Source of the DNA: Acidobacteriota bacterium
Lineage (GTDB): Bacteria > Acidobacteriota > Holophagae > Holophagales > Holophagaceae
DNA length: 46,924 nt
Direction of reading: 5' to 3'
NCBI GenBank assembly: GCA_021794095.1
Contig: JAJYRN010000020.1
Location: forward strand, 1 to 46,924
The notes beneath the pieces are model-generated. The model searched no databases, was not told the DNA's origin, and was given only the letters and a program-made list of their open reading frames with translations. A program made the position numbers and the translations under genes. Numbering within the stretch: the stretch's first letter is position 1; each line of letters opens with the position of its first letter. This document shows, one piece after another, positions 7,743 through 18,264 of the stretch.

Positions 7743-9704
7743 ATGCCGACGCTGGACGTCACCCTGATTCTCGCCGCCGCGGGCTGCTGGGCTGTAGCTG
7801 GCCTTCTGCCCCTGGCAGGCCCGCGGGCCGACCGGGGCGGCACCTTCCTGGGCGTCCTGGGCTCCCTGCTGGGCGCCGGGGCGGCCCTGCATGCCCTGCT
7901 GGCGCCCACCGCGCCCGGCCTGTCCTTCACCTTCTGGGGTGCGCCCGCCCGGATCGAGGTGGATGCCCTGTCCGCGGCCTTCCTGCTGCCCCTGCATCTG
8001 GTGGCCGGACTGGCCATTCTGTACGGCCGGGAGTACTGGCCCCTGTCTGCCCCCAAGGGCTCGGGGCGGTCCGTGCGCGTCTTCTTCGCGAGCCAAGTGG
8101 CGGCCATGACGGTGCTCTTCGTGGTGCGCCAGGGCCTGCTCTTCCTGGTGGCCTGGGAAGCCATGGCCGTGTCCGCGTTCTTCCTCATCCAGACCGAACA
8201 CGAGCGGCCCGAGGTGCGCCGGGCCGGCTGGATCTACCTCGCCGCCACCCACGCCGGCACCCTGGCTCTCACCGCCATGGTGATCCTACTGGCCCACCGC
8301 ACGGGCAGCCTGCTGTGGAACCCCGTGACTGGCACCGGCTCGCCCCTCGATGCATGGATCCTCCTCCTGGCTATGGTGGGATTCGGGTTCAAGATGGGCC
8401 TCTTCCCGCTCCACTTCTGGCTGCCCTCGGCCCACGCCAGTTCCCCCAGCCACGCCTCGGCGCTGCTATCGGCGGTGATGCTGAAGGCCGGGGTGTACGG
8501 TCTGCTGCGGGTCTCCGGGCTGCTGCCCACCATCCCCCGCGGCTTCGGCGGCGGCCTCCTGGCCCTCGGCGCCATCACCGCGGTCTGGGGCGTGGGGAAC
8601 GCCCTGGCCCAGCGCGACTACAAGCGCCTGCTGGCCTACTCCAGCGTGGAGAACCTGGGGATCATCGCCATGGGCATCGGCCTGGGCTGGACCGGCCGGG
8701 CCATCCACAATCCCTGGCTGGTGGCCCTGGGCTTCGGCGCAGCCCTGTTCCACGTCTGGAACCATTCGGTTTTCAAGACCCTCCTCTTTTTCGGCGCAGG
8801 CTCCATCCTGCACGCCACGGGCACCCGCGACATGGAGGCCCTGGGCGGCCTGGGCCGCCGCATGCCGCGCACCCTGCTCCTGCTCGCGCCGGCGATCCTG
8901 GCCGTGGCGGCCCTGCCGCCCTTCAACGCCTTCCTGAGCGAATGGATCCTCTACCGGGGCCTCTTCGCCTCGCTCGACCAGGGCTATCCCTGGTCCGGCG
9001 GACTGGCCCTGGTCGCCCTCGCCCTCACCGGCGGGTTGGCGGTGGTGGCCTTCGCCCGCTTCTTCGGCACCGTCTTCCTGGGCAACCCCAGGACCGACGC
9101 CGCGGTTCACGCCCACGATCCCTCCCCCACCATGCGAACGCCCATGGCCGTCCTGGCGGGTCTGTGCCTGGCCCTGGGCCTTGCGAGCCCGCTCCTGCTG
9201 CCGCTCCTGGGCCGGGCGGCGGGCGGGGCCGGCCTCACAGAACCGGGTCTGCTGGGCCGCGGGCTGGGCCACGACCTGCGCCTGCTGACGGCCCTGGAAG
9301 CCCTGCTGCTGACCCTGGCGGCCCTGGCCCTGGCCTGGCTCCGCCGGCAACCCGCCGCCGCCGAGCGCCCGCCCACCTGGGATTGCGGCTACGCGGCGCC
9401 CACGGCGCGGATGCAGTACACGGGCAGTTCCTTCGCGGATCCCTGGGCCGCGCTCCTGCCGGGCCGCAGTGTGCGGATGCACCGGCTGAAGGGCCTCTTT
9501 CCGAAACCCCACGCACTGCACATCGAGGTTCAGGACGCGGTGGGCGAGGGCCTGGTGGTCCCCTGGTTCGTCCGGATGGCGGCCCGGGCCCAGCGGTTGC
9601 GCCGGCTCCAGCCGGGCTACCTGTCGGTCTATGTCCTCTACGTGCTGATCGCCCTCCTGGCGGCGTTCCTCTGGCCCCTCCTCCGGGCAAGGTTGCTGGG
9701 ATGA
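7743..9704 (+). CDS. HyfB-like proton-antiporter membrane subunit 1 (Ehr complex)
   Basis: A 653-residue polytopic protein of the NuoL/Mrp antiporter family, closest to hydrogenase-4 component B (HyfB/HycC). Expected charged residues lie inside membrane helices: Glu in LVAWEAMAVSAFF, Lys in GFGFKMGLFPLHFWLP, and Lys in AVMLKAGVYGLL. The C-terminal tail has the HyfB/HycC hallmark TWDCGYAAPTARMQY. It should be one of the proton-translocating channels of a complex I-like membrane arm. It is the first gene of a seven-gene operon and overlaps the next by ATGA. No obvious promoter or strong ribosome site was found; GGAG lies just before the ATG. Confidence 0.93.
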   Translation: MPTLDVTLILAAAGCWAVAGLLPLAGPRADRGGTFLGVLGSLLGAGAALHALLAPTAPGLSFTFWGAPARIEVDALSAAFLLPLHLVAGLAILYGREYWPLSAPKGSGRSVRVFFASQVAAMTVLFVVRQGLLFLVAWEAMAVSAFFLIQTEHERPEVRRAGWIYLAATHAGTLALTAMVILLAHRTGSLLWNPVTGTGSPLDAWILLLAMVGFGFKMGLFPLHFWLPSAHASSPSHASALLSAVMLKAGVYGLLRVSGLLPTIPRGFGGGLLALGAITAVWGVGNALAQRDYKRLLAYSSVENLGIIAMGIGLGWTGRAIHNPWLVALGFGAALFHVWNHSVFKTLLFFGAGSILHATGTRDMEALGGLGRRMPRTLLLLAPAILAVAALPPFNAFLSEWILYRGLFASLDQGYPWSGGLALVALALTGGLAVVAFARFFGTVFLGNPRTDAAVHAHDPSPTMRTPMAVLAGLCLALGLASPLLLPLLGRAAGGAGLTEPGLLGRGLGHDLRLLTALEALLLTLAALALAWLRRQPAAAERPPTWDCGYAAPTARMQYTGSSFADPWAALLPGRSVRMHRLKGLFPKPHALHIEVQDAVGEGLVVPWFVRMAARAQRLRRLQPGYLSVYVLYVLIALLAAFLWPLLRARLLG

Positions 9705-11620
9705 GCCTCTACCTCACCGCCCTGCTCCTGGTGGCAGCCTCCGGCATCCCGGGGCTGTTCCTCCGGAAGCGGGGCGGGGAGGTGGCTGCGGTTCTGCTGA
9801 GCCTGGGCGCCGTCCTCGGCCTCGCCGCAGCGGCGCGGGTGCTGCTCGGGGCTGCCCCCTCCCAGGTCCAGTTGCCGCCTTCGCCCCTGGGCCATCCGGG
9901 GCTGCTGGTGCTGGATCCCGTCGCCGCGTGGTTCCTGGCGCCGGTCCTCTTCCTCTCGGCCTGCGGCGCGGTCTATGGCATCGGCTATTGGGGCGATGGG
10001 CACCCGGGTGCCCGCGGCCTGCGCCTGGCCTATGGCGGCCTGGCGGCGGCCATGGCCCTGCTGGCCACCGCGGCGCAGGCGCTGGTCTTCCTGCTGGCCT
10101 GGGAGGGCATGGCCGTGCTGGCGTGCCTGCTGGTGCTGACGGAGGACCGCGATCCCGAAACCCGGCGCGCCGGCTGGACCTTCCTCGTCACGACGCACCT
10201 CGGCACCCTGGCCCTCTTCGCGGCCTTCGCCCTGCTGCCGGCCGCCCGCTTCGCCGCCCTCCCGGCGGGCTTCGCCGCCAGTGGCCGGGGCACAGCCTTC
10301 TTCCTCCTCTGCCTCCTGGGCTTCGGCGTGAAAGCTGGTGTCATGCCCTTCCACTTCTGGCTGCCTCCGGCCCACGCTGCGGCGCCCAGCCACGTGTCCG
10401 CCCTCATGTCGGGCGTGATGATCAAGATGGGGATCCTCGGCTTGGTGCGGGTGATTGCCTGGACGCCCGATCCGCCGCTCTGGTGGGGCGCCCTGCTGGC
10501 GGGCCTGGGGGTGGTGTCCGGCATCCTGGGCGTGGCCTTCGCCCTGGGCCAGCACGACCTCAAGCGGCTGCTGGCCTACCACTCCATCGAGAACATCGGG
10601 ATCATCCTCATGGGCCTGGGCCTGGGGCTCCTGGGGCGCAGCCTGGGCCATCCCGTCCTGGCGGTCCTGGGCTTCGGCGCGGCCCTGTTCCATGTCTGGA
10701 ACCACGCCGCCTTCAAGGGGCTGCTCTTCCTCGCCGCGGGATCCGCCGTCCACGCCGCCGGCACCCGCGCCCTGGACCGCCTGGGTGGCCTGGCCCGCCG
10801 CATGCCCTGGACCGCCGCGGCCTTCCTGATGGGCGCCTGGGCCATCTGCGGCCTGCCGCCCCTCAATGGCTTCGTCAGCGAGTGGCTGCTGTACCTCGGC
10901 TCCTTCCGCGCCCTGGAGCTGTCCCGCTGGCCCTGGTCCGTGGCCCTCCTGTCGGCCCTGGCCCTCATCGGCGCGCTGGCCCTGGCCTGCTTCGCCAAGG
11001 CGTTTGGCATCGTGTTCCTGGGCGAGCCGCGTTCGGCTGCCGCGGTCGCCGTCCACGAAGCCCCGGGAAGCATGCGCTGGCCCATGGGGCTGCTGGTGCT
11101 GGCCTGTGCCACCCTCGGCCTGGCCCCGGGCCTGGTAGCCCCCGCCCTCGACCGGACCGTGGGCGCCCTCGGCGTGTCCGCCGCACCCCTGGCCACCCTG
11201 GCCCGTTTCTCCACCCTGTCGTTCCTGGGCCTGGGCCTGGTGCTCCTGGCCCTCCTCCTGCTCCTCTGGCTGCGCCCGAAGCGGACGGTGGAGGTGTCCA
11301 CCTGGGATTGCGGGTACGCCGAACCCACGGCGCGGATGCAGTACACCGCCTCCTCCTTCGCCGCCGCGCCCGTGGCGGGCTTCCGCTGGGCCCTGCTGCC
11401 CGTGGAGCACCGGCCCCGGCTCCGCGGCCTCTTCCCCGCGCCCGCCCGGTACGAAAGCCACGTGGCGGATCCCGTGCTGGATCGCGCCGCTGCGCCCGGC
11501 CTCCGCCTGACCGCCCGGGGGCTGGCCCTCCTGCGCGTCGTCCAGGGCGGCCAGCTGCCGGTCTACCTCCTCTATGTCCTGCTCACCTTGATGTTCCTCC
11601 TGCTCTGGATGGTGCTCTGA
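9701..11620 (+). CDS. HyfB-like proton-antiporter membrane subunit 2 (Ehr complex)
   Basis: A 639-residue paralogue of the preceding gene, starting at the ATG that overlaps its stop (ATGA). It has the same topology and motifs (LLAWEGMAVLACL, GFGVKAGVMPFHFWLPPAHA, FALGQHDLKRLLAYHS) and the same HyfB tail TWDCGYAEPTARMQY. Hydrogenase-4 has a single HyfB plus HyfD and HyfF. Here HyfD is absent and a second HyfB takes its place, so the membrane arm keeps three antiporter-like channels. The long in-frame extension upstream overlaps the first HyfB gene and is not coding. It stops 1 nt before the HyfC start. Confidence 0.92.
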   Translation: MSLYLTALLLVAASGIPGLFLRKRGGEVAAVLLSLGAVLGLAAAARVLLGAAPSQVQLPPSPLGHPGLLVLDPVAAWFLAPVLFLSACGAVYGIGYWGDGHPGARGLRLAYGGLAAAMALLATAAQALVFLLAWEGMAVLACLLVLTEDRDPETRRAGWTFLVTTHLGTLALFAAFALLPAARFAALPAGFAASGRGTAFFLLCLLGFGVKAGVMPFHFWLPPAHAAAPSHVSALMSGVMIKMGILGLVRVIAWTPDPPLWWGALLAGLGVVSGILGVAFALGQHDLKRLLAYHSIENIGIILMGLGLGLLGRSLGHPVLAVLGFGAALFHVWNHAAFKGLLFLAAGSAVHAAGTRALDRLGGLARRMPWTAAAFLMGAWAICGLPPLNGFVSEWLLYLGSFRALELSRWPWSVALLSALALIGALALACFAKAFGIVFLGEPRSAAAVAVHEAPGSMRWPMGLLVLACATLGLAPGLVAPALDRTVGALGVSAAPLATLARFSTLSFLGLGLVLLALLLLLWLRPKRTVEVSTWDCGYAEPTARMQYTASSFAAAPVAGFRWALLPVEHRPRLRGLFPAPARYESHVADPVLDRAAAPGLRLTARGLALLRVVQGGQLPVYLLYVLLTLMFLLLWMVL

Positions 11621-11621
11621 G

Positions 11622-12545
11622 ATGCCCGGATTCCTGGTCTTCCCCACCCATGTCGCCTTGCACCTCCTGGTGGCGCTGCTGCTCCCGCCGCTGATCCCTG
11701 GCCTGATCGCCAAGACCAAGGCCGCCATGGCCGGGCGCCAGGGCCCGCCAGTCCTGCAGCTCTACTACGATCTGGCGCGGCTGGCGCGGAAGGAAGCGGT
11801 CTTCAGCCGCACCACCACCTGGGTCTTTCTCGCCGGTCCCATCGGCGCCCTGGCCGCGGGCTGGGTGGCCTCGCTCCTGATCCCCTTCGGCCAGACCCCG
11901 GCGCCCGTGGCCTTCCAGGGCGACGTCATCCTCTTCGCCTACCTGTTCGGCCTGGCGCGCTTCCTCACCATCCTGGCGGCCCTGGACACGGGATCGGCCT
12001 TCGAGGGCATGGGCGCCGCCCGCGAGGCCGCCTTCTCCGCCCTGGCGGAACCCGCGCTGTTCCTGGGCTTCGCGGCCCTGGCCAAAGCCACCCAGAGCCT
12101 CTCGCTCACGCCGATGCTGCTCAGCCACGGGGCGGCCGGCGGCCGGCTCACGGGCCCGCTGATCCTCGTGCTGGCCGGCTGGGCCACTGTCTATCTGGCG
12201 GAGAATGCGCGCATCCCCGTGGATGATCCCAACACCCACCTCGAATTGACCATGATCCACGAGGTGATGGTGCTGGACCACTCGGGCCGCCCCTTCGCCC
12301 TGGTGCTCTACGGCGCCAGCCTGAAGCTGGTGGTGCTGGGCGCCCTGATCCTGGATCTGCTGCTGCCGCCCACGGGCCGGCCCTGGCTGGACTGGCTGGG
12401 CTTCCTGGCCGGCCTCGGGGCCCTGGCCATCGCCGTGGGCCTGGTGGAGAGCGCCATGGCCCGCTTCCGCATGACCAAGGTGCCCCAGTTCCTCGTGGCG
12501 GGCATCCTGGCCTCCGCCTTCGCCTTCCTCCTGCTGCTGGTGTAG
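11622..12545 (+). CDS. hyfC: HyfC/NuoH-like membrane anchor subunit (Ehr complex)
   Basis: A 307-residue NuoH-family protein (hydrogenase-4 component C). Family-diagnostic segments are GLIAKTKAAMAGRQGPPVLQ near the N-terminus, the acidic loop GSAFEGMGAAREA, and ENARIPVDDPNTHLELTMIHEVM. These form the junction between the Fe-S/quinone-like peripheral arm and the membrane arm. About eight membrane helices are visible. It sits directly between the second HyfB and HyfE with spacings of 1 and 2 nt, typical of a single translation-coupled operon. Confidence 0.93.
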   Translation: MPGFLVFPTHVALHLLVALLLPPLIPGLIAKTKAAMAGRQGPPVLQLYYDLARLARKEAVFSRTTTWVFLAGPIGALAAGWVASLLIPFGQTPAPVAFQGDVILFAYLFGLARFLTILAALDTGSAFEGMGAAREAAFSALAEPALFLGFAALAKATQSLSLTPMLLSHGAAGGRLTGPLILVLAGWATVYLAENARIPVDDPNTHLELTMIHEVMVLDHSGRPFALVLYGASLKLVVLGALILDLLLPPTGRPWLDWLGFLAGLGALAIAVGLVESAMARFRMTKVPQFLVAGILASAFAFLLLLV

Positions 12546-12547
12546 CC

Positions 12548-13183
12548 ATGTCCCCCGATCTCCTCATCGCCCTCGTCATGCTCACCAACTTCACGCTGGT
12601 GGCCACCAGCCGCATCAACAAGGCCATCCAGGTGGCCGTGGCCCAGGGCGTGCTCCTGGGCCTGATGCCCATCGCCATGGGGTTGGGCCGCCACCTCCAC
12701 ATCCTGGCCATGGCCGTCGCGGCCGTGGCGGTGAAGGGCTGGCTCATTCCTTTCCTGCTGCGCCGGGCTATGCGGGAAGTGCAGATCCAGCGTGAGGTGG
12801 ATCCCTTCATCGGCTACACGGCCTCGCTGCTGCTCTGCGCCGTGGGCACGGGCCTCAGCCTCATACTGGCCCACAGCCTGCCCCTGAACCCCGGCGCGGC
12901 GCCCCCCTTCCTGGTGCCGGCGGCCCTGGCGACGCTCTTCACCGGCTTCCTGCTGCTGGTCTCCCGCCGCAAGGCGCTGACGCAGGTGGTGGGCTACCTG
13001 GTGCTGGAGAACGGCATCTACCTGTTCGGCCTGCTGCTGGTGGAGGACATGCCCGCGCTGGTGGAGACCGGCATCCTGCTGGATCTCTTCGTGGGCGTGT
13101 TCGTGATGGGGATCGTCATCCACCACATCCGCGCCGCCTTTGATTCCACGGACATCCGCCATCTGGCCGAACTGAAGGACTGA
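12548..13183 (+). CDS. hyfE: HyfE-like membrane subunit (Ehr complex)
   Basis: A 211-residue all-helical membrane protein matching hydrogenase-4 component E, a NuoK-containing subunit. The C-terminal half carries the NuoK-like portion, LVLENGIYLFGLLL, with the conserved membrane glutamate in GYLVLENG. It also carries DLFVGVFVMGIVIHHI. The order between HyfC and HyfF is the same as in hydrogenase-4 clusters except that HyfD is missing. It starts 2 nt after hyfC and ends 3 nt before hyfF. Confidence 0.9.
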   Translation: MSPDLLIALVMLTNFTLVATSRINKAIQVAVAQGVLLGLMPIAMGLGRHLHILAMAVAAVAVKGWLIPFLLRRAMREVQIQREVDPFIGYTASLLLCAVGTGLSLILAHSLPLNPGAAPPFLVPAALATLFTGFLLLVSRRKALTQVVGYLVLENGIYLFGLLLVEDMPALVETGILLDLFVGVFVMGIVIHHIRAAFDSTDIRHLAELKD

Positions 13184-13186
13184 CCG

Positions 13187-14659
13187 ATGGCCGGACTCCT
13201 CATCGCCCTGCCCCTCGCCGCCGCGCTGGTCGCCTTCCTGGTGCCTTCGCCCACCTGGCGGGCCCGCCTCCTGCCCGCCACGGCCGTCCTCCATCTCGCG
13301 CTGCTGCTGCTGGTCCTGCGCCACTGGCAGACCCTCCCCGCCGGGGCCTGGCTGGGCCTGGACGCCCTGGGCGGCTGGACCCTGCTCGTCATCAGCACCC
13401 TCTTCGCCATCTGCGCCTTTTATGCGCCCTCCTACCTGGCCCTGCGGCCCGACCGGGACCACCGGATCTTCACGACCTGCCTGCTCGCCTTCCTCGGCCT
13501 GGCCTCCCTGCTGGCCGAAGCCCGGCATCCGGGGCTCGTCTGGGTGGCCATGGAAACCACCACGCTGACCACGGCGCCGCTGATCTACTTCAACCACAAC
13601 CGCCGTTCGCTGGAAGCCACCTGGAAGTACCTCGTCATCGGCTCCGTGGGCATCGCCCTGGCCCTGCTGGGTACCCTCTTCGTGGCCTACGCCGCCCACA
13701 TGGGCGGGGTGGAGGAACCGCTCCAGTTTCCGCGTCTGATGCAGGAAGCCGGTCTCCTGTCGAAGCCCTGGCTGCGGGCGGGCTTCGTGCTGACGCTGGT
13801 GGGCTACGGCACCAAGATGGGCCTGGCGCCGCTGCACACCTGGAAACCCGATGCCTACGGCGAGACGCCGGGCATCGTGGGCGCGCTGCTCGCGGGCGGC
13901 GTGACCAGTTGCGCCTTCCTGGCCCTGCTCCGCATCACCGCCGTGGTGGCCGCCGCGGGCGAAGGCGCCTTCGCCCGGCAGATCCTGGTGGGCTTCGGCC
14001 TCCTCTCCATGGCCTGGGCCCTGGTCTTCATGGTGGGGCAGACGGATTTCAAGCGCCTGCTGGCCTACTCCAGCGTGGAGAACATGGGCGTCCTCGCCCT
14101 GGGCATCGGCCTCGGGGGCGCCGCCACGCGCTTCGCCCTGTACCACATGGCCGCCAACGCCCTGGTGAAGACCGCGCTGTTCCTTTCCGCCGGCAACATC
14201 CACCGCAGCTACGCCAGCAAGCAGCTGCCCCACGTGACCGGCGCCCTCCGCCGGACGCCGGTCTCCGCCGCCCTCTTCCTCCTGGGCTTCCTGGCCATCA
14301 CGGGCCTGCCGCCCTTCGCCCCCTTCATCAGCGAATTCAACATCGCCGCCACGGCCCTCACGGCCGGCCATGTGTGGATCGGCGCCCTGTTCCTGCTCCT
14401 GCTGGCGGGCATCTTCCTCGGCATGAGCGACACCGTGCTGCAGGTGGTCTTTGGCACCCCCAGTCCCCAGCGGGTGCGGACCCCCTACCGGGACACCTTC
14501 GCCACCACCGCACCGCTGATCGTGGCCTTGGGCCTGGCCCTGGGGCTGGGCCTCTGGCTGCCCCGGCCCGCCGGGGAGATGCTCAGGAACGCCGCCGCCA
14601 CGGTGGAAGGCGCCGTGCCGCCACCCCCGGCGGTCCGCCTGGCGGAGGTGCGGCCATGA
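13187..14659 (+). CDS. hyfF: HyfF-like proton-antiporter membrane subunit (Ehr complex)
   Basis: A 490-residue NuoL/M/N-type antiporter subunit most like hydrogenase-4 component F. Motifs include Glu in WVAMETTTLTTAPL and Lys in GYGTKMGLAPLHTWKPDAY. FMVGQTDFKRLLAYSSVENMG and the broken-helix region ITGLPPFAPFISEF are also present. It differs from the two HyfB proteins in lacking the TWDCGY tail. It provides the third putative proton channel of the complex. Its stop overlaps the ATG of the next gene (ATGA). Confidence 0.92.
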   Translation: MAGLLIALPLAAALVAFLVPSPTWRARLLPATAVLHLALLLLVLRHWQTLPAGAWLGLDALGGWTLLVISTLFAICAFYAPSYLALRPDRDHRIFTTCLLAFLGLASLLAEARHPGLVWVAMETTTLTTAPLIYFNHNRRSLEATWKYLVIGSVGIALALLGTLFVAYAAHMGGVEEPLQFPRLMQEAGLLSKPWLRAGFVLTLVGYGTKMGLAPLHTWKPDAYGETPGIVGALLAGGVTSCAFLALLRITAVVAAAGEGAFARQILVGFGLLSMAWALVFMVGQTDFKRLLAYSSVENMGVLALGIGLGGAATRFALYHMAANALVKTALFLSAGNIHRSYASKQLPHVTGALRRTPVSAALFLLGFLAITGLPPFAPFISEFNIAATALTAGHVWIGALFLLLLAGIFLGMSDTVLQVVFGTPSPQRVRTPYRDTFATTAPLIVALGLALGLGLWLPRPAGEMLRNAAATVEGAVPPPPAVRLAEVRP

Positions 14660-16173
14660 GCCCGGTCCCGTTCATCCCCATCCGCAACGGCCAGGCCCTG
14701 CCCCTGAACGACGTGCCCGAGCTGCCCTTCGCCGCGTTCCGCGAAACCATCGTCCAGGCCGTCCGCGAAGGCCAGCGCCTCGCCTGCCTCTGCGCCGACG
14801 CCGAGCGTCGCCTCTTCGCCGTGCTGGCCGATGATGCGGAGAAGAGCCTCTGCACGGGCCGCACGCGCCTCGAGGGGTCGCGCTACCCGTCGCTGACGCC
14901 GGACTGCCCCCAGGCCCACCTGTTCGAGCGGGAAATGGCCGAGCAGTTCGGCCTCGTGCCCGAGGGCCATCCCTGGTTCAAGCCCGTACGGGGCCACGTG
15001 CCCTGGAACGGCGCGCCGGATCCCTGGGGCCGCGGCGAAGCGCCGCTCCCCGGTGTGCTCGACTTCTACCGGGTGACGGGCGATGAAGTCCACGAAGTGG
15101 CCGTGGGGCCCGTCCATGCCGGCGTCATCGAGCCGGGCCACTTCCGCTTCCAGTGCCACGGGGAGAAGGTGTTCCACCTGGAGATCGCCCTGGGCTACCA
15201 GCACCGCGGCATCGAGCGGGCGCTGCTTGGCGGGCCCCATCCCCTCACCTGGAAGATGATGGAGACCGCCTCCGGCGATGCCACCCTCGCCCACGCCTGG
15301 GCCCACTGCCGCGTGCTGGAGGGCCTGGCCGGCGGGGCGCCATCCCCGCGCGTGGACCGGGTGCGGGGCGTGGCCCTGGAGCTGGAGCGCATGGCCAACC
15401 ACACGGGCGATCTGGGCGCGCTCTCCGGCGATGTGGGTTTCCTGCCCACCGCCTCCTTCTGCGGCCGCATCCGCGGCGATTGGCTGAACCTCAGTGCCGA
15501 GGGCTGCGGCAGCCGTCTCGGCCGGAACTGGCTCCGCCCGGGCGGCCTGCGCCACGATCTGGAGCCGGAGCGCGCCCAGCGCATGCGGCCCCGCGTGGCC
15601 CAGACCTGGGCGGACACCCGCGACGCCGTGGAACTGCTCTGGGGCGCCGCCTCCGTGATGCTCCGCTTCGAGGCCGCGGGCGCGGTGGATCCCGTCCAGG
15701 CCCGGGAGCTGGGCCTCGTGGGCGTGGCGGCCCGCGCCTGCGGGATGGATCTGGATGTGCGCCAGGATCATCCCTTCGGCCCCTACGCCGATCATCCCAT
15801 CACGGTGGCGACCGCCCAGAGCGGCAACGTCCACGCCCGGGCCTGGGTGCGCTGGAAGGAACTCGAGGCCAGCGCGGATCACCTGATGCATGCGCTGGAG
15901 GAACTGGCGGAAACCCCCGCCGAGCCGCCGCCGGGGCCCCTCCCGCCGCTGGCCCCGGACAGCCTCTGCGTGGCCCTCACCGAAGGCTGGCGGGGCGAAG
16001 TGCTGCACCTGGCCATCACCGATGCCGCCGGGCGCTTCGCCCGCTACAAGCTGGTGGATGCCTCCTTCCACAACTGGGCGGGCCTGGCCCTGGCCCTGCG
16101 CGGCGGGCAGATTTCCGATTTCCCCGTGTGCAACAAGAGCTTCAACCTCTCCTACTGCGGGCACGACCTATGA
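14656..16173 (+). CDS. HyfG/NuoCD-like large subunit lacking all Ni ligands (Ehr complex)
   Basis: A 505-residue fusion of a NuoC-like domain (about residues 1-125; signature LFEREMAEQFGL) and a NuoD/[NiFe]-hydrogenase large-subunit domain (from GPVHAGVIEPGHFRF onward), as in HycE/HyfG. The N-terminal Ni-binding motif CGxC of hydrogenases is replaced by the segment METASGDATLAH (residues 202-213), with no cysteine. The C-terminal DPCxxC is replaced by NKSFNLSYCGHDL (493-505), where the only Cys (501) is out of register. No [NiFe] centre can form. I therefore assign it to the Ehr family (energy-converting hydrogenase-related), whose reaction is not known. It overlaps both neighbours by ATGA. 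Confidence 0.92.
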   Translation: MSPVPFIPIRNGQALPLNDVPELPFAAFRETIVQAVREGQRLACLCADAERRLFAVLADDAEKSLCTGRTRLEGSRYPSLTPDCPQAHLFEREMAEQFGLVPEGHPWFKPVRGHVPWNGAPDPWGRGEAPLPGVLDFYRVTGDEVHEVAVGPVHAGVIEPGHFRFQCHGEKVFHLEIALGYQHRGIERALLGGPHPLTWKMMETASGDATLAHAWAHCRVLEGLAGGAPSPRVDRVRGVALELERMANHTGDLGALSGDVGFLPTASFCGRIRGDWLNLSAEGCGSRLGRNWLRPGGLRHDLEPERAQRMRPRVAQTWADTRDAVELLWGAASVMLRFEAAGAVDPVQARELGLVGVAARACGMDLDVRQDHPFGPYADHPITVATAQSGNVHARAWVRWKELEASADHLMHALEELAETPAEPPPGPLPPLAPDSLCVALTEGWRGEVLHLAITDAAGRFARYKLVDASFHNWAGLALALRGGQISDFPVCNKSFNLSYCGHDL

Positions 16174-16952
16174 TCCACATCCTCCGGTCCCGCTGGCGCC
16201 AGGGTTTCCGCACCCTGCCCTACCCCAAAACGATTCCGGCCCTGCCCGATCGCTTCCGCGGCCGGCCCGTGTTCCAGCCGGAACGCTGCCCCGAGGGCTG
16301 CCAGGCCTGCGCCGACGCCTGCGCGACCGGGGCCATCACCCTGGGTTCCGAGGGCCCCCGGCTCGACCTGGGCCGCTGCCTGTTCTGCCCCGACTGCGCG
16401 GACGCCTGCCCCGAAGGCGCGATCACCTTCACCGGCGAACACCGCCTGGCCACCCGCACCCGGGAAGATCTCACCGTGGGCCCCGGCGAGTACCGCCTGG
16501 CCGAGGCCCTGAACGCCGAGATGATGCGCGTCTTCGGGCGTTCGCTGAAGCTCCGCGTGGTGAGCGCCGGCGGCTGCAACGGCTGTGAGGTGGATGTGAA
16601 CGTGCTGGGCACCCTCTCCTGGGACATAGGCCGCTTCGGCATCCAGATCGTCGCCTCCCCGCGCCACGCCGATGCCCTGGTGGTATGCGGCCCCGTGACC
16701 CGCGCCATGGAGCTGGCCCTGCGCAAGACCTGGGACGCCATGCCAAGCCCCAAACTCGTCATCGCCGTCGGCGCCTGCGCCATTCAAGGCGGCCCCTACC
16801 TGCACCAGCCGGAGCAGCTCGGCGGCGCCTCCGCGATCCTGCCGGTGGACCTTTTCATCCCCGGCTGCCCGCCCCATCCCCTCACCATTCTGGATGGCCT
16901 GCTGCGCCTCCTGGGACGGCTCGATACGCCCTCTCGATCTTTAGAACTATAA
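16170..16952 (+). CDS. Ferredoxin-NuoB/HyfI fusion subunit (Ehr complex)
   Basis: A 260-residue electron-transfer subunit combining what is HyfH plus HyfI in hydrogenase-4. Residues 40-80 carry two [4Fe-4S] motifs. The first, at Cys40/44/47/51, is CxxxCxxCxxxC, one residue wider than usual; the second, at Cys70/73/76/80, is the canonical CxxCxxCxxxCP. Residues about 125-250 are a NuoB-like domain with the four ligands of the proximal N2-type cluster: Cys136 and Cys139 (GGCNGCE), Cys203 (GAC) and Cys233 (PGCPP). The Fe-S relay is therefore complete although the partner large subunit has no Ni site. Last gene of the operon; the downstream DNA turns abruptly AT-rich. Confidence 0.92.
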   Translation: MIHILRSRWRQGFRTLPYPKTIPALPDRFRGRPVFQPERCPEGCQACADACATGAITLGSEGPRLDLGRCLFCPDCADACPEGAITFTGEHRLATRTREDLTVGPGEYRLAEALNAEMMRVFGRSLKLRVVSAGGCNGCEVDVNVLGTLSWDIGRFGIQIVASPRHADALVVCGPVTRAMELALRKTWDAMPSPKLVIAVGACAIQGGPYLHQPEQLGGASAILPVDLFIPGCPPHPLTILDGLLRLLGRLDTPSRSLEL

Positions 16953-16965
16953 AAAAATCTGACAT

Positions 16966-16997
16966 TTGCAACATGCGATCGAGTCCCGTGCTAGTGT
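16966..16997 (+). promoter_or_regulatory. Candidate promoter for the DUF4382 lipoprotein
   Basis: An AT-rich island (about 16943-17040) within otherwise GC-rich DNA separates the Ehr operon from the lipoprotein gene. It contains TTGCAA (16966-16971) and an extended-type TGCTAGTGT (16989-16997). The spacing is about 20 nt, longer than ideal, and TATAAA-like sequence follows at 17004. The location is convincing but the exact hexamers are not. Confidence 0.3.
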
Positions 16998-17103
16998 CAT
17001 TTTTTATAAATTCGTCCAATTCTATTACTTATCAACACACTGGAAATCCGTGCGCGCCCGCCCACACTTCTCCCGGGAAATCACCTTTCTCACGGAGGAG
17101 ACG

Positions 17104-18264
17104 ATGCGCAGGACATGGAACGTGACCGCAGGGACGGCGGTGCTGGGCCTGGTCGCCTTGGTCGGATGCGGGGGGAACAGCGGCAGTTCCTCCGCCACCA
17201 CCGGCACGATGAATGTCCATCTGGTGGATGGCCCCATCAGCGGCTACCAGCAGGTCAACGTCAACATCCAGTCGGTGGAGATCAACAACGGCGGCAACTG
17301 GATCACCCTGGCCAGCCCCAACAAGACCACCAACCTCCTGAGCCTCACGGGCGGCGTGAGCGAGCTGATCGCTTCCGGCGCCACCCTGCCCGCGGGCCAC
17401 TACAGCCAGATGCGGCTGATCCTGGGCTCGGGGAACAACGTGGTGCTGTCCGATGGCACCACCCAGCCCCTGAAGGTGCCCTCGGGCCTGCAGACGGGCA
17501 TCAAGCTGGTGGTGAGCTTCGACGTGGCCGCCGGCACCACGGCGGATGTGTGGATTGACTTCGACGCCGCCCATTCCATCCAGGTGGTGCAGGCCGGGGC
17601 GTCGGGCATGTACATGCTGCGTCCGACGGTCTGGGCCTACGACAAGACCGTCACGGGCTCCATCAGCGGCACCCTGACCGACAGCGCGACCACCAAGCCC
17701 CTGGGGGATGCGACCGTCTACGCGGAAACCCTCGATGCCTCCGGCAATGCCCGCATCGCACGCACCACGACCACCGACGCCAACGGCGCCTACACCCTGG
17801 ACCTCCTGCCCGTGGGCGCCACCTACTACATCGTCAGCCAGCCCCAGGTGGAAGGAACGGTTCCTGTCTCCTATGACGCCAAGGCCAGCGATGCCTACGC
17901 CCTGAGCGCCGCCACTCCGGTCTTCACCTACAACGCCGCCTTCACCGCGGATGCGGCCCTGGGCGGTGTGGGCGGAGGCCTCACGCCGATGGCCACCGCC
18001 ACCCAGAGCGATGCGGTGAACCTGCTCCAGCCCCTGGCCACGCCCGCCTCCGGCAGCTTCACCTTCATCGTGGGCAGCACCATGGCCACCGTCGGAACCT
18101 CATCGGAGACCTACGCCTTCGCGAATCTGCCCGCTGGCACGTACAACCTCCAGGCCATTCGCACCACCTTGAACACCGATGGCACCACCACGCAGAGCGT
18201 CTCCGCCCTGCAGCCCGCCACCGTCACCGCGGGCCTCACTGCCACCGTGAACCTGGGGCTCTGA
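17104..18264 (+). CDS. DUF4382-domain lipoprotein
   Basis: A 386-residue predicted lipoprotein (signal peptide with lipobox LVGCG) starting at an ATG preceded by GGAGGAG at a good distance. Residues about 33-180 form a DUF4382 domain (GTMNVHLVDGPISGYQQV...SVEI). Then comes a carboxypeptidase-regulatory/Cna-B-like beta-sandwich (SISGTLTDSATTKPLGDATVYAE...DANGAYTLDLLPVG), and a second similar module lies near the C-terminus. This is a cell-surface architecture rich in Thr/Ser with no catalytic motif. The function of DUF4382 is not known to me. It probably has its own promoter and ends at a strong bidirectional hairpin. Confidence 0.85.
   Translation: MRRTWNVTAGTAVLGLVALVGCGGNSGSSSATTGTMNVHLVDGPISGYQQVNVNIQSVEINNGGNWITLASPNKTTNLLSLTGGVSELIASGATLPAGHYSQMRLILGSGNNVVLSDGTTQPLKVPSGLQTGIKLVVSFDVAAGTTADVWIDFDAAHSIQVVQAGASGMYMLRPTVWAYDKTVTGSISGTLTDSATTKPLGDATVYAETLDASGNARIARTTTTDANGAYTLDLLPVGATYYIVSQPQVEGTVPVSYDAKASDAYALSAATPVFTYNAAFTADAALGGVGGGLTPMATATQSDAVNLLQPLATPASGSFTFIVGSTMATVGTSSETYAFANLPAGTYNLQAIRTTLNTDGTTTQSVSALQPATVTAGLTATVNLGL

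Follow-up and report, generated by a model that had tools for sequence, protein, structure and literature searches.

What could a complex assembled like a membrane-bound hydrogenase do once its large subunit has lost every nickel ligand? The question is raised by a locus in the window (the whole stretch of DNA analysed, 46,924 nucleotides), which is an entire contig of a 2.99-Mb genome, 99% complete, whose nearest relatives are Holophagaceae, including Geothrix limicola; the host is a Geothrix-like acidobacterium. The gene concerned, at 14656-16173 (+), is confirmed as an open reading frame (ORF) of 505 amino acids (aa) with an ATG start, the sixth of a seven-gene operon (7743-16952). To judge from its sequence, the locus is a new member of the known Ehr (energy-converting, or Ech, hydrogenase-related) class, and the product is termed EhrL. 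Such complexes have been described earlier, their function being unknown or only suspected (PMC6349859, PMC10284858, PMC7894505, PMC3569383, PMC12342949). The reading favoured here, with a probability of roughly 0.5, is that the Ehr of the window may be a redox-driven ion pump with a low-potential carrier, an iron-sulfur (Fe-S) relay and an acceptor bound in a rebuilt pocket.

Loss of the Ni-Fe centre

EhrL matches Complex1_49kDa (PF00346, E 6e-33) and Complex1_30kDa (PF00329, E 3e-6), i.e., the NuoD- and NuoC-like domains named in a first-pass annotation of this DNA. Its best solved relative is Escherichia coli HycE (7z0s_E, sequence E 1e-39), and the predicted model (mean pLDDT 90.6) matches HycE with Z 42.9 over 490 residues at 2.5 Å. 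The register between the two proteins is thus supported by the predicted fold as well as by sequence. HycE C241, C244, C531 and C534 align with EhrL S206, A209, S499 and G502, so that all four Ni-ligand Cys are lost, as the same annotation had claimed from residues 202-213 (METASGDATLAH) and 493-505, both of which read as it gave them. In the former CGxC loop (residues 203-213, ETASGDATLAH; 15262-15294, +) Ser206 and Ala209 flank the invariant Gly207 and Asp208. In the former DPCxxC tail (residues 493-505, NKSFNLSYCGHDL; 16132-16170, +) Ser499 and Gly502 replace the Cys residues, and Asn497 the canopy Asp. EhrL stops where HycE has Arg537, the site at which the maturation protease cuts HycE, and is therefore without a C-terminal extension to cleave. 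It is a large subunit without a Ni-Fe centre.

Among 84 aligned relatives, Ser occupies the third Ni position in 81 and Gly the fourth in 82; the first holds Ala or Ser, seldom Cys, and the second is Thr or Ser. The rare Cys206, found in a few Geothrix relatives (ETACGD), was rejected as a leftover Ni ligand because the genomes carrying it lack HypD. Cys501, which adjoins a ligand position and lies between two of them rather than in one, was rejected as a substitute catalytic Cys, being Ala in many lineages.

Assignment to Ehr, which the first-pass annotation had proposed, is borne out by several features together: a group 4 hydrogenase-like large subunit devoid of Ni-ligand Cys (the two Ni-Fe-binding CxxC motifs of group 4 [NiFe] hydrogenases are missing), an operon joining NuoL-, HyfC-, HyfE- and HyfF-like membrane subunits to a large and a small subunit, the independence from hyp genes described below, and the grouping of EhrL with Geobacteraceae Ehr in a quick tree (locus L037 inside; HycE, HyfG and locus L158 outside).

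Independence from NiFe maturation

Absence of hyp maturation genes near the locus had been suggested as a check on this assignment. In the window genome it is uninformative, because HypD and two other [NiFe] large-subunit (PF00374) matches are present on contig C8 (G000:C8:148093-197139). The point is settled by relatives. Nine Geothrix genomes of 96-99% estimated completeness (G006, G007, G008, G015, G018, G021, G024, G025 and G034) carry Ehr with no PF00374 match over the cut-off and without HypD, the only one of the six maturation proteins (HypA-F) searched. Ehr without HypD also occurs in Geothrix limicola Red804 and Ca. Magnetominusculus xianensis. Since Ehr is found in genomes lacking both HypD and another [NiFe] large subunit, it needs neither the NiFe cofactor nor hyp maturation, and the HypA-F dependence of group 4 [NiFe] hydrogenases is not seen here.

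The same genomes bear on the suggestion, made for Geobacter, of an H2-evolving or formate-hydrogenlyase-like enzyme. It is prompted by the rise of Ehr proteins on formate in G. sulfurreducens (PMC7894505). With no Ni ligands, with Ehr in genomes devoid of HypD and of any other [NiFe] enzyme, and with no FdhF/HycB-type subunit in the operon, such an activity is highly improbable.

The rebuilt pocket

Across phyla, 109 EhrL positions are at least 95% conserved in the 84 aligned relatives, among them Gly207-Asp208 of the former CGxC loop and the C-terminal NKSFNLSYxGxDL. The motif AGD[ST] and the C-terminal NKSFNLSY[CA]GxDL are near-invariant over about ten phyla, and because of this constancy the replacement motifs would not be a matter of chance. 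The Ni site has been rebuilt rather than left to decay; the pocket is rebuilt around Asp208, Ser/Thr209, Ser499, Tyr500 and the fixed C-terminus. One part of it is inherited: NKSF is also present in L158, a [NiFe]-type homologue occurring as a second copy in Gemmatimonadota with all four Ni Cys kept (CGVC ... NKSFELCYSCTDR). L158, which branches just outside all Ehr and is the nearest [NiFe]-type relative seen, shares the motifs HAGIIEPGH and NKSF with Ehr and differs in retaining CGVC and CYSC. A comparable case is the EhrL of Desulfotomaculum ruminis, which has four Cys (PMC3569383).

The dN/dS of EhrL is 0.14-0.15 for Geothrix pairs and 0.06-0.14 in the other lineages sampled, which points to strong selection on Ehr. 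Recently, Geobacter Ehr was treated as non-functional for want of a NiFe site, and that of G. sulfurreducens KN400 was stated to be a non-functional hydrogenase relic (PMC13194489, 2026). Loss of the site does fit a relic; however, the conservation over many phyla, rebuilt site included, and the low dN/dS (0.06-0.15) argue against it, as does the conserved order of the whole operon, and a relic is hardly credible. Separately, EhrL of Geobacter sp. UBA9964 (L082:9001-10371) seems to be broken before its C-terminus into two pieces in different frames, possibly by an assembly error.

The proton path of the hydrogenase is retained. Glu193, His284, Arg395, Glu437 and canopy Arg478, assigned to proton transfer in HycE (PMC9474812), correspond to EhrL Glu159, His249, Arg360, Glu402 and Arg446; the only canopy residue changed is HycE Asp529 (Asn497 in EhrL).

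The first-pass annotation had suggested a quinone site as in NuoD. Where complex I has its quinone-headgroup residues, His38 and Tyr87 of Nqo4 (PMC7684303), EhrL has Ile158 and Gly207, and nearly all relatives show the same change; EhrL is not NuoD-like in this respect, and a NuoD-type quinone site is not supported. A ferredoxin:quinone oxidoreductase working like complex I is for this reason unlikely. The NuoD fold, the complete relay of the window locus, the canopy Arg and the large interface chamber that complex I, MBH and MBS share (PMC7684303) would suit such an enzyme, but the pocket is nearer to that of HycE than to that of NuoD, and two ordinary NuoD genes are already present elsewhere in the window genome. 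EhrL shares with NuoD/Nqo4 the fold and the position of the C-terminal end; the complexes differ also in the proximal cluster, which in Ehr has a hydrogenase-type CxxC instead of tandem Cys.

Operon and membrane arm

All genes of the operon lie on the forward strand, and several junctions overlap by 4 bp. EhrA-1 (7743-9704, 653 aa) is a HyfB/NuoL-like antiporter subunit (NCBIfam hydrogenase 4 subunit B, E 4e-144; PF00361). It is followed, with a 4-bp overlap, by a second HyfB-like antiporter subunit, EhrA-2 (9701-11620, 639 aa; PF00361, E 3e-48). EhrB (11622-12545, 307 aa; PF00146, E 3e-33) is a HyfC/NuoH-like membrane anchor, and EhrC (12548-13183, 211 aa) a HyfE-like membrane subunit (NCBIfam hydrogenase 4 membrane subunit, E 7e-24, below the curated cut-off). 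EhrD (13187-14659, 490 aa) is a HyfF-like antiporter subunit (NCBIfam hydrogenase 4 subunit F, E 1e-89; PF00361). EhrL, a HyfG/HycE-like NuoC and NuoD fusion, is followed by EhrS (16170-16952, 260 aa), in which a ferredoxin domain is fused to a NuoB/HycG-like small subunit. Gene order of the whole operon is conserved among relatives. Directly downstream of ehrS, a DUF4382/carboxypeptidase-regulatory-like protein is encoded at 16966-18264 (+) with no evident operon link.

The membrane arm retains the charged residues of proton-pumping subunits: acidic E194, D202, E208, E214 and E276 are conserved in EhrB, and E123, K210 and K328 in EhrD. Lineages devoid of the Fe-S relay also keep E135, K211, K339 and E394 of EhrA, K210 and K328 of EhrD, and E194, E208 and E214 of EhrB.

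The Fe-S relay and a proposed mechanism

In EhrS of the window all 12 Fe-S Cys are present, eight in the ferredoxin domain (C40, 44, 47, 51, 70, 73, 76 and 80) and four in the proximal cluster (136, 139, 203 and 233), enough to bind three [4Fe-4S] clusters. The full relay and the three antiporter-like subunits (EhrA-1, EhrA-2 and EhrD, all matching PF00361) that were first ascribed to this locus are therefore there. In two-cluster ferredoxins, the first three Cys of one motif and the last Cys of the other bind each cluster; by this rule we take cluster N6a to be C40/44/47/80 and N6b to be C51/70/73/76. Every readable Geothrix EhrS (18 of 18) retains the full set of 12 Cys, and because of this the relay is taken to be held by selection in Geothrix.

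In the favoured redox-pump reading, electrons from a soluble low-potential (ferredoxin-like) carrier would reach the proximal cluster through N6a and N6b. The EhrL pocket would bind an acceptor, which could be reduced and protonated in it. The pocket and the β1-β2 loop would then pass a push to the acidic channel of EhrB and to the antiporter-like subunits, which could move H+ or Na+.

Reduction of sulfane sulfur (polysulfide), as by Pyrococcus MBS, was considered as another use of these clusters. In MBS, too, the residues of the quinone site and some of those of the Ni site are missing, and substrate reduction takes place at the proximal cluster (PMC7684303). Its catalysis, however, depends on a proximal cluster held by three Cys of a shortened motif, whereas Ehr has CxxC...C...C with hydrogenase spacing and no Cys at the Ni positions, where MbsL keeps two. 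The proton-transfer Glu lost in MBS is retained in Ehr as Glu159, and an MBS-like activity is very unlikely.

Several observations weigh against the redox pump as proposed. No acceptor was identified. Confidence of the EhrL model is low at the β1-β2 loop (153-158) and at the last four residues. No conserved electron-donor gene adjoins the operon in the named loci, where sensor kinases and housekeeping genes dominate, and gene neighbourhood was rejected as a guide to the donor. Relay clusters have been repeatedly lost where pocket and membrane arm are still under selection. One Gemmatimonadota metagenome-assembled genome (MAG; L138/L192) lacks, in addition, all four proximal-cluster Cys in an intact 267-aa ORF (L192:715-1515, -), GSGADE, GTEAI and PGFPAHP standing in place of the proximal ligands and the EhrL signature being intact; this cofactor-free EhrS is known from one 4.5-kb contig and needs confirming, and searches of the Gemmatimonadota order and phylum returned no further one.

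Stepwise loss of the relay in relatives

The losses track the N6a and N6b ligand sets. In Desulfobacteraceae, C40, C44 and C80 are lost together with N6b retained, and in many Elusimicrobiota N6a is wholly lost and N6b retained. The reverse is found in Gemmatimonadota L144, L078 and L208, where the N6a ligands are retained and N6b is lost, so that the chain would break. Both clusters are missing in most Gemmatimonadota and in one large Omnitrophota clade, and no ferredoxin domain at all remains in EhrS of Elusimicrobia L088/L094 and Omnitrophota L085/L095/L130/L131. Loci noted with relay losses include L065, L092, L169-L181, L046, L048, L113-L121, L053, L056, L088, L130 and L131.

On an EhrL tree of 156 rows (quick search, LG+G4), the relay states require 13 changes, and the starred branches alone force at least six origins of N6a-only loss and at least four of the state with both clusters lost; the relay labels were read automatically by column, and a few isolated rows, L038 for example, may carry a wrong label. 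In relay-less lineages the EhrL pocket is intact and dN/dS is near 0.1. The proximal cluster is retained in all readable relatives but one.

Beside the relay-less operons examined no substitute ferredoxin was found, apart from a DUF362 protein encoded 2.6 kb from the operon of L085. The ferredoxin relay would be a removable input module rather than part of the conserved core of Ehr, which probably consists of the pocket, the proximal cluster (bar one) and the membrane arm. As Ehr across the family can dispense with the relay, a redox pump fed through it can be only part of the story. The redox pump with another acceptor site, put forward in the first-pass annotation, stays plausible for the window and does not carry over to the family. 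For members without the relay two options are left: electrons reach the pocket or the proximal cluster by another route, or none are taken from outside.

The second option leads to the chief alternative, a redox-independent or pocket-only translocator of H+ or other ions, in which the pocket would be a proton junction or a non-redox ligand site and the Fe-S clusters structural or vestigial. It agrees with the independent losses of N6a, of N6a with N6b and of the whole ferredoxin domain, with the lack of an ORF bearing a ferredoxin motif next to almost every relay-less operon examined, with the unaltered pocket, membrane residues and dN/dS in these lineages, and with L138, where EhrL is intact and every cluster Cys is gone. 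The almost universal proximal cluster and the 12 Cys kept in Geothrix are difficult to explain by it; moreover, the hydrogenase proton path would equally serve a redox site, and the cofactor-free case is one MAG contig of 4.5 kb. This translocator is considered possible, at odds well short of even. A related proposal, of slightly lower probability, is that the core function of Ehr is not electron transfer, the complex being a complex I-type translocator driven or gated by chemistry in the rebuilt, metal-free pocket, with an optional relay that is often discarded and, in at least one Gemmatimonadota MAG, has gone along with all other cluster ligands.

Neighbouring genes

A gene that joins a helix-turn-helix (HTH_17) to a PTS EIIA (PTS_EIIA_2) domain lies next to the start of the ehr operon, or overlaps it, on the same strand in 16 of the 41 named loci with at least 1.2 kb upstream, and the positives span at least eight phyla (L046:3293-4000, L037:1017-1733, L075:1158-1952, L053:1247-2020 and 12 more). 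The phospho-His motif of GxGIAIPHxR type is retained in nearly all of these proteins; the partner gene is absent from the window genome. In E. coli, EIIA-Ntr proteins control potassium transport; by analogy, the gene hints, as a lead only, at a link between Ehr and ion or energy status. In L197 (3295-5533) a PTS_EIIA-CBS gene and a CitMHS/ArsB-type permease lie directly upstream of the Ehr operon, and in L046 a SulP transporter is situated upstream of the EIIA gene. NfnAB-like genes (L196:11472-13711) are located 10 bp downstream of an Ehr operon devoid of the ferredoxin domain, itself placed after nuoLMN-like genes; the scan of further loci gave no homologue.

Relation to known systems and significance

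Ehr is found in nitrifiers, Geobacter, sulfate reducers, acidobacteria and candidate phyla. In Geobacter it is encoded by GSU0739-0745 (EhrA-1, A-2, B, C, D, L and S; PMC7894505), with the same seven subunit kinds and a large subunit lacking Ni ligands. The homologue of Geomonas silvestris (L037) has identical gene order and a fused EhrS. Geobacter belongs to another phylum, and the likeness to G. sulfurreducens is drawn at the level of the gene set.

The E. coli formate hydrogenlyase and hydrogenase 4 (HycE, HyfG) offer the closest solved fold and sequence, the NuoC and NuoD fusion and the proton path. Unlike them, Ehr has lost the four Ni Cys, the canopy Asp529 (now Asn) and the cleavable C-terminus; it has no HycB/FdhF input, and its ferredoxin subunit is fused to the small subunit. 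Pyrococcus MBS (MbsL/MbsJ) is likewise a complex I-type pump without a NiFe centre, but retains two of the four Cys and has a three-Cys proximal cluster.

In the open PMC papers searched, no description was found of stepwise relay loss, of Ehr in HypD-less genomes, of the fixed signature that replaces the Ni site or of the EIIA partner; earlier notice of the relay losses in the original Ehr papers (Coppi 2005, later reviews) is possible.

Ehr emerges as a complex that is under strong selection and independent of NiFe, that can be parted from its relay and that has no quinone site of the NuoD type. The question of its function is now tied to specific mutants (pocket, proximal cluster and relay) and to natural relay-less variants. 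If it is true that a relative of complex I pumps ions without an electron relay, this would bear directly on how redox chemistry and pumping are coupled in complex I.

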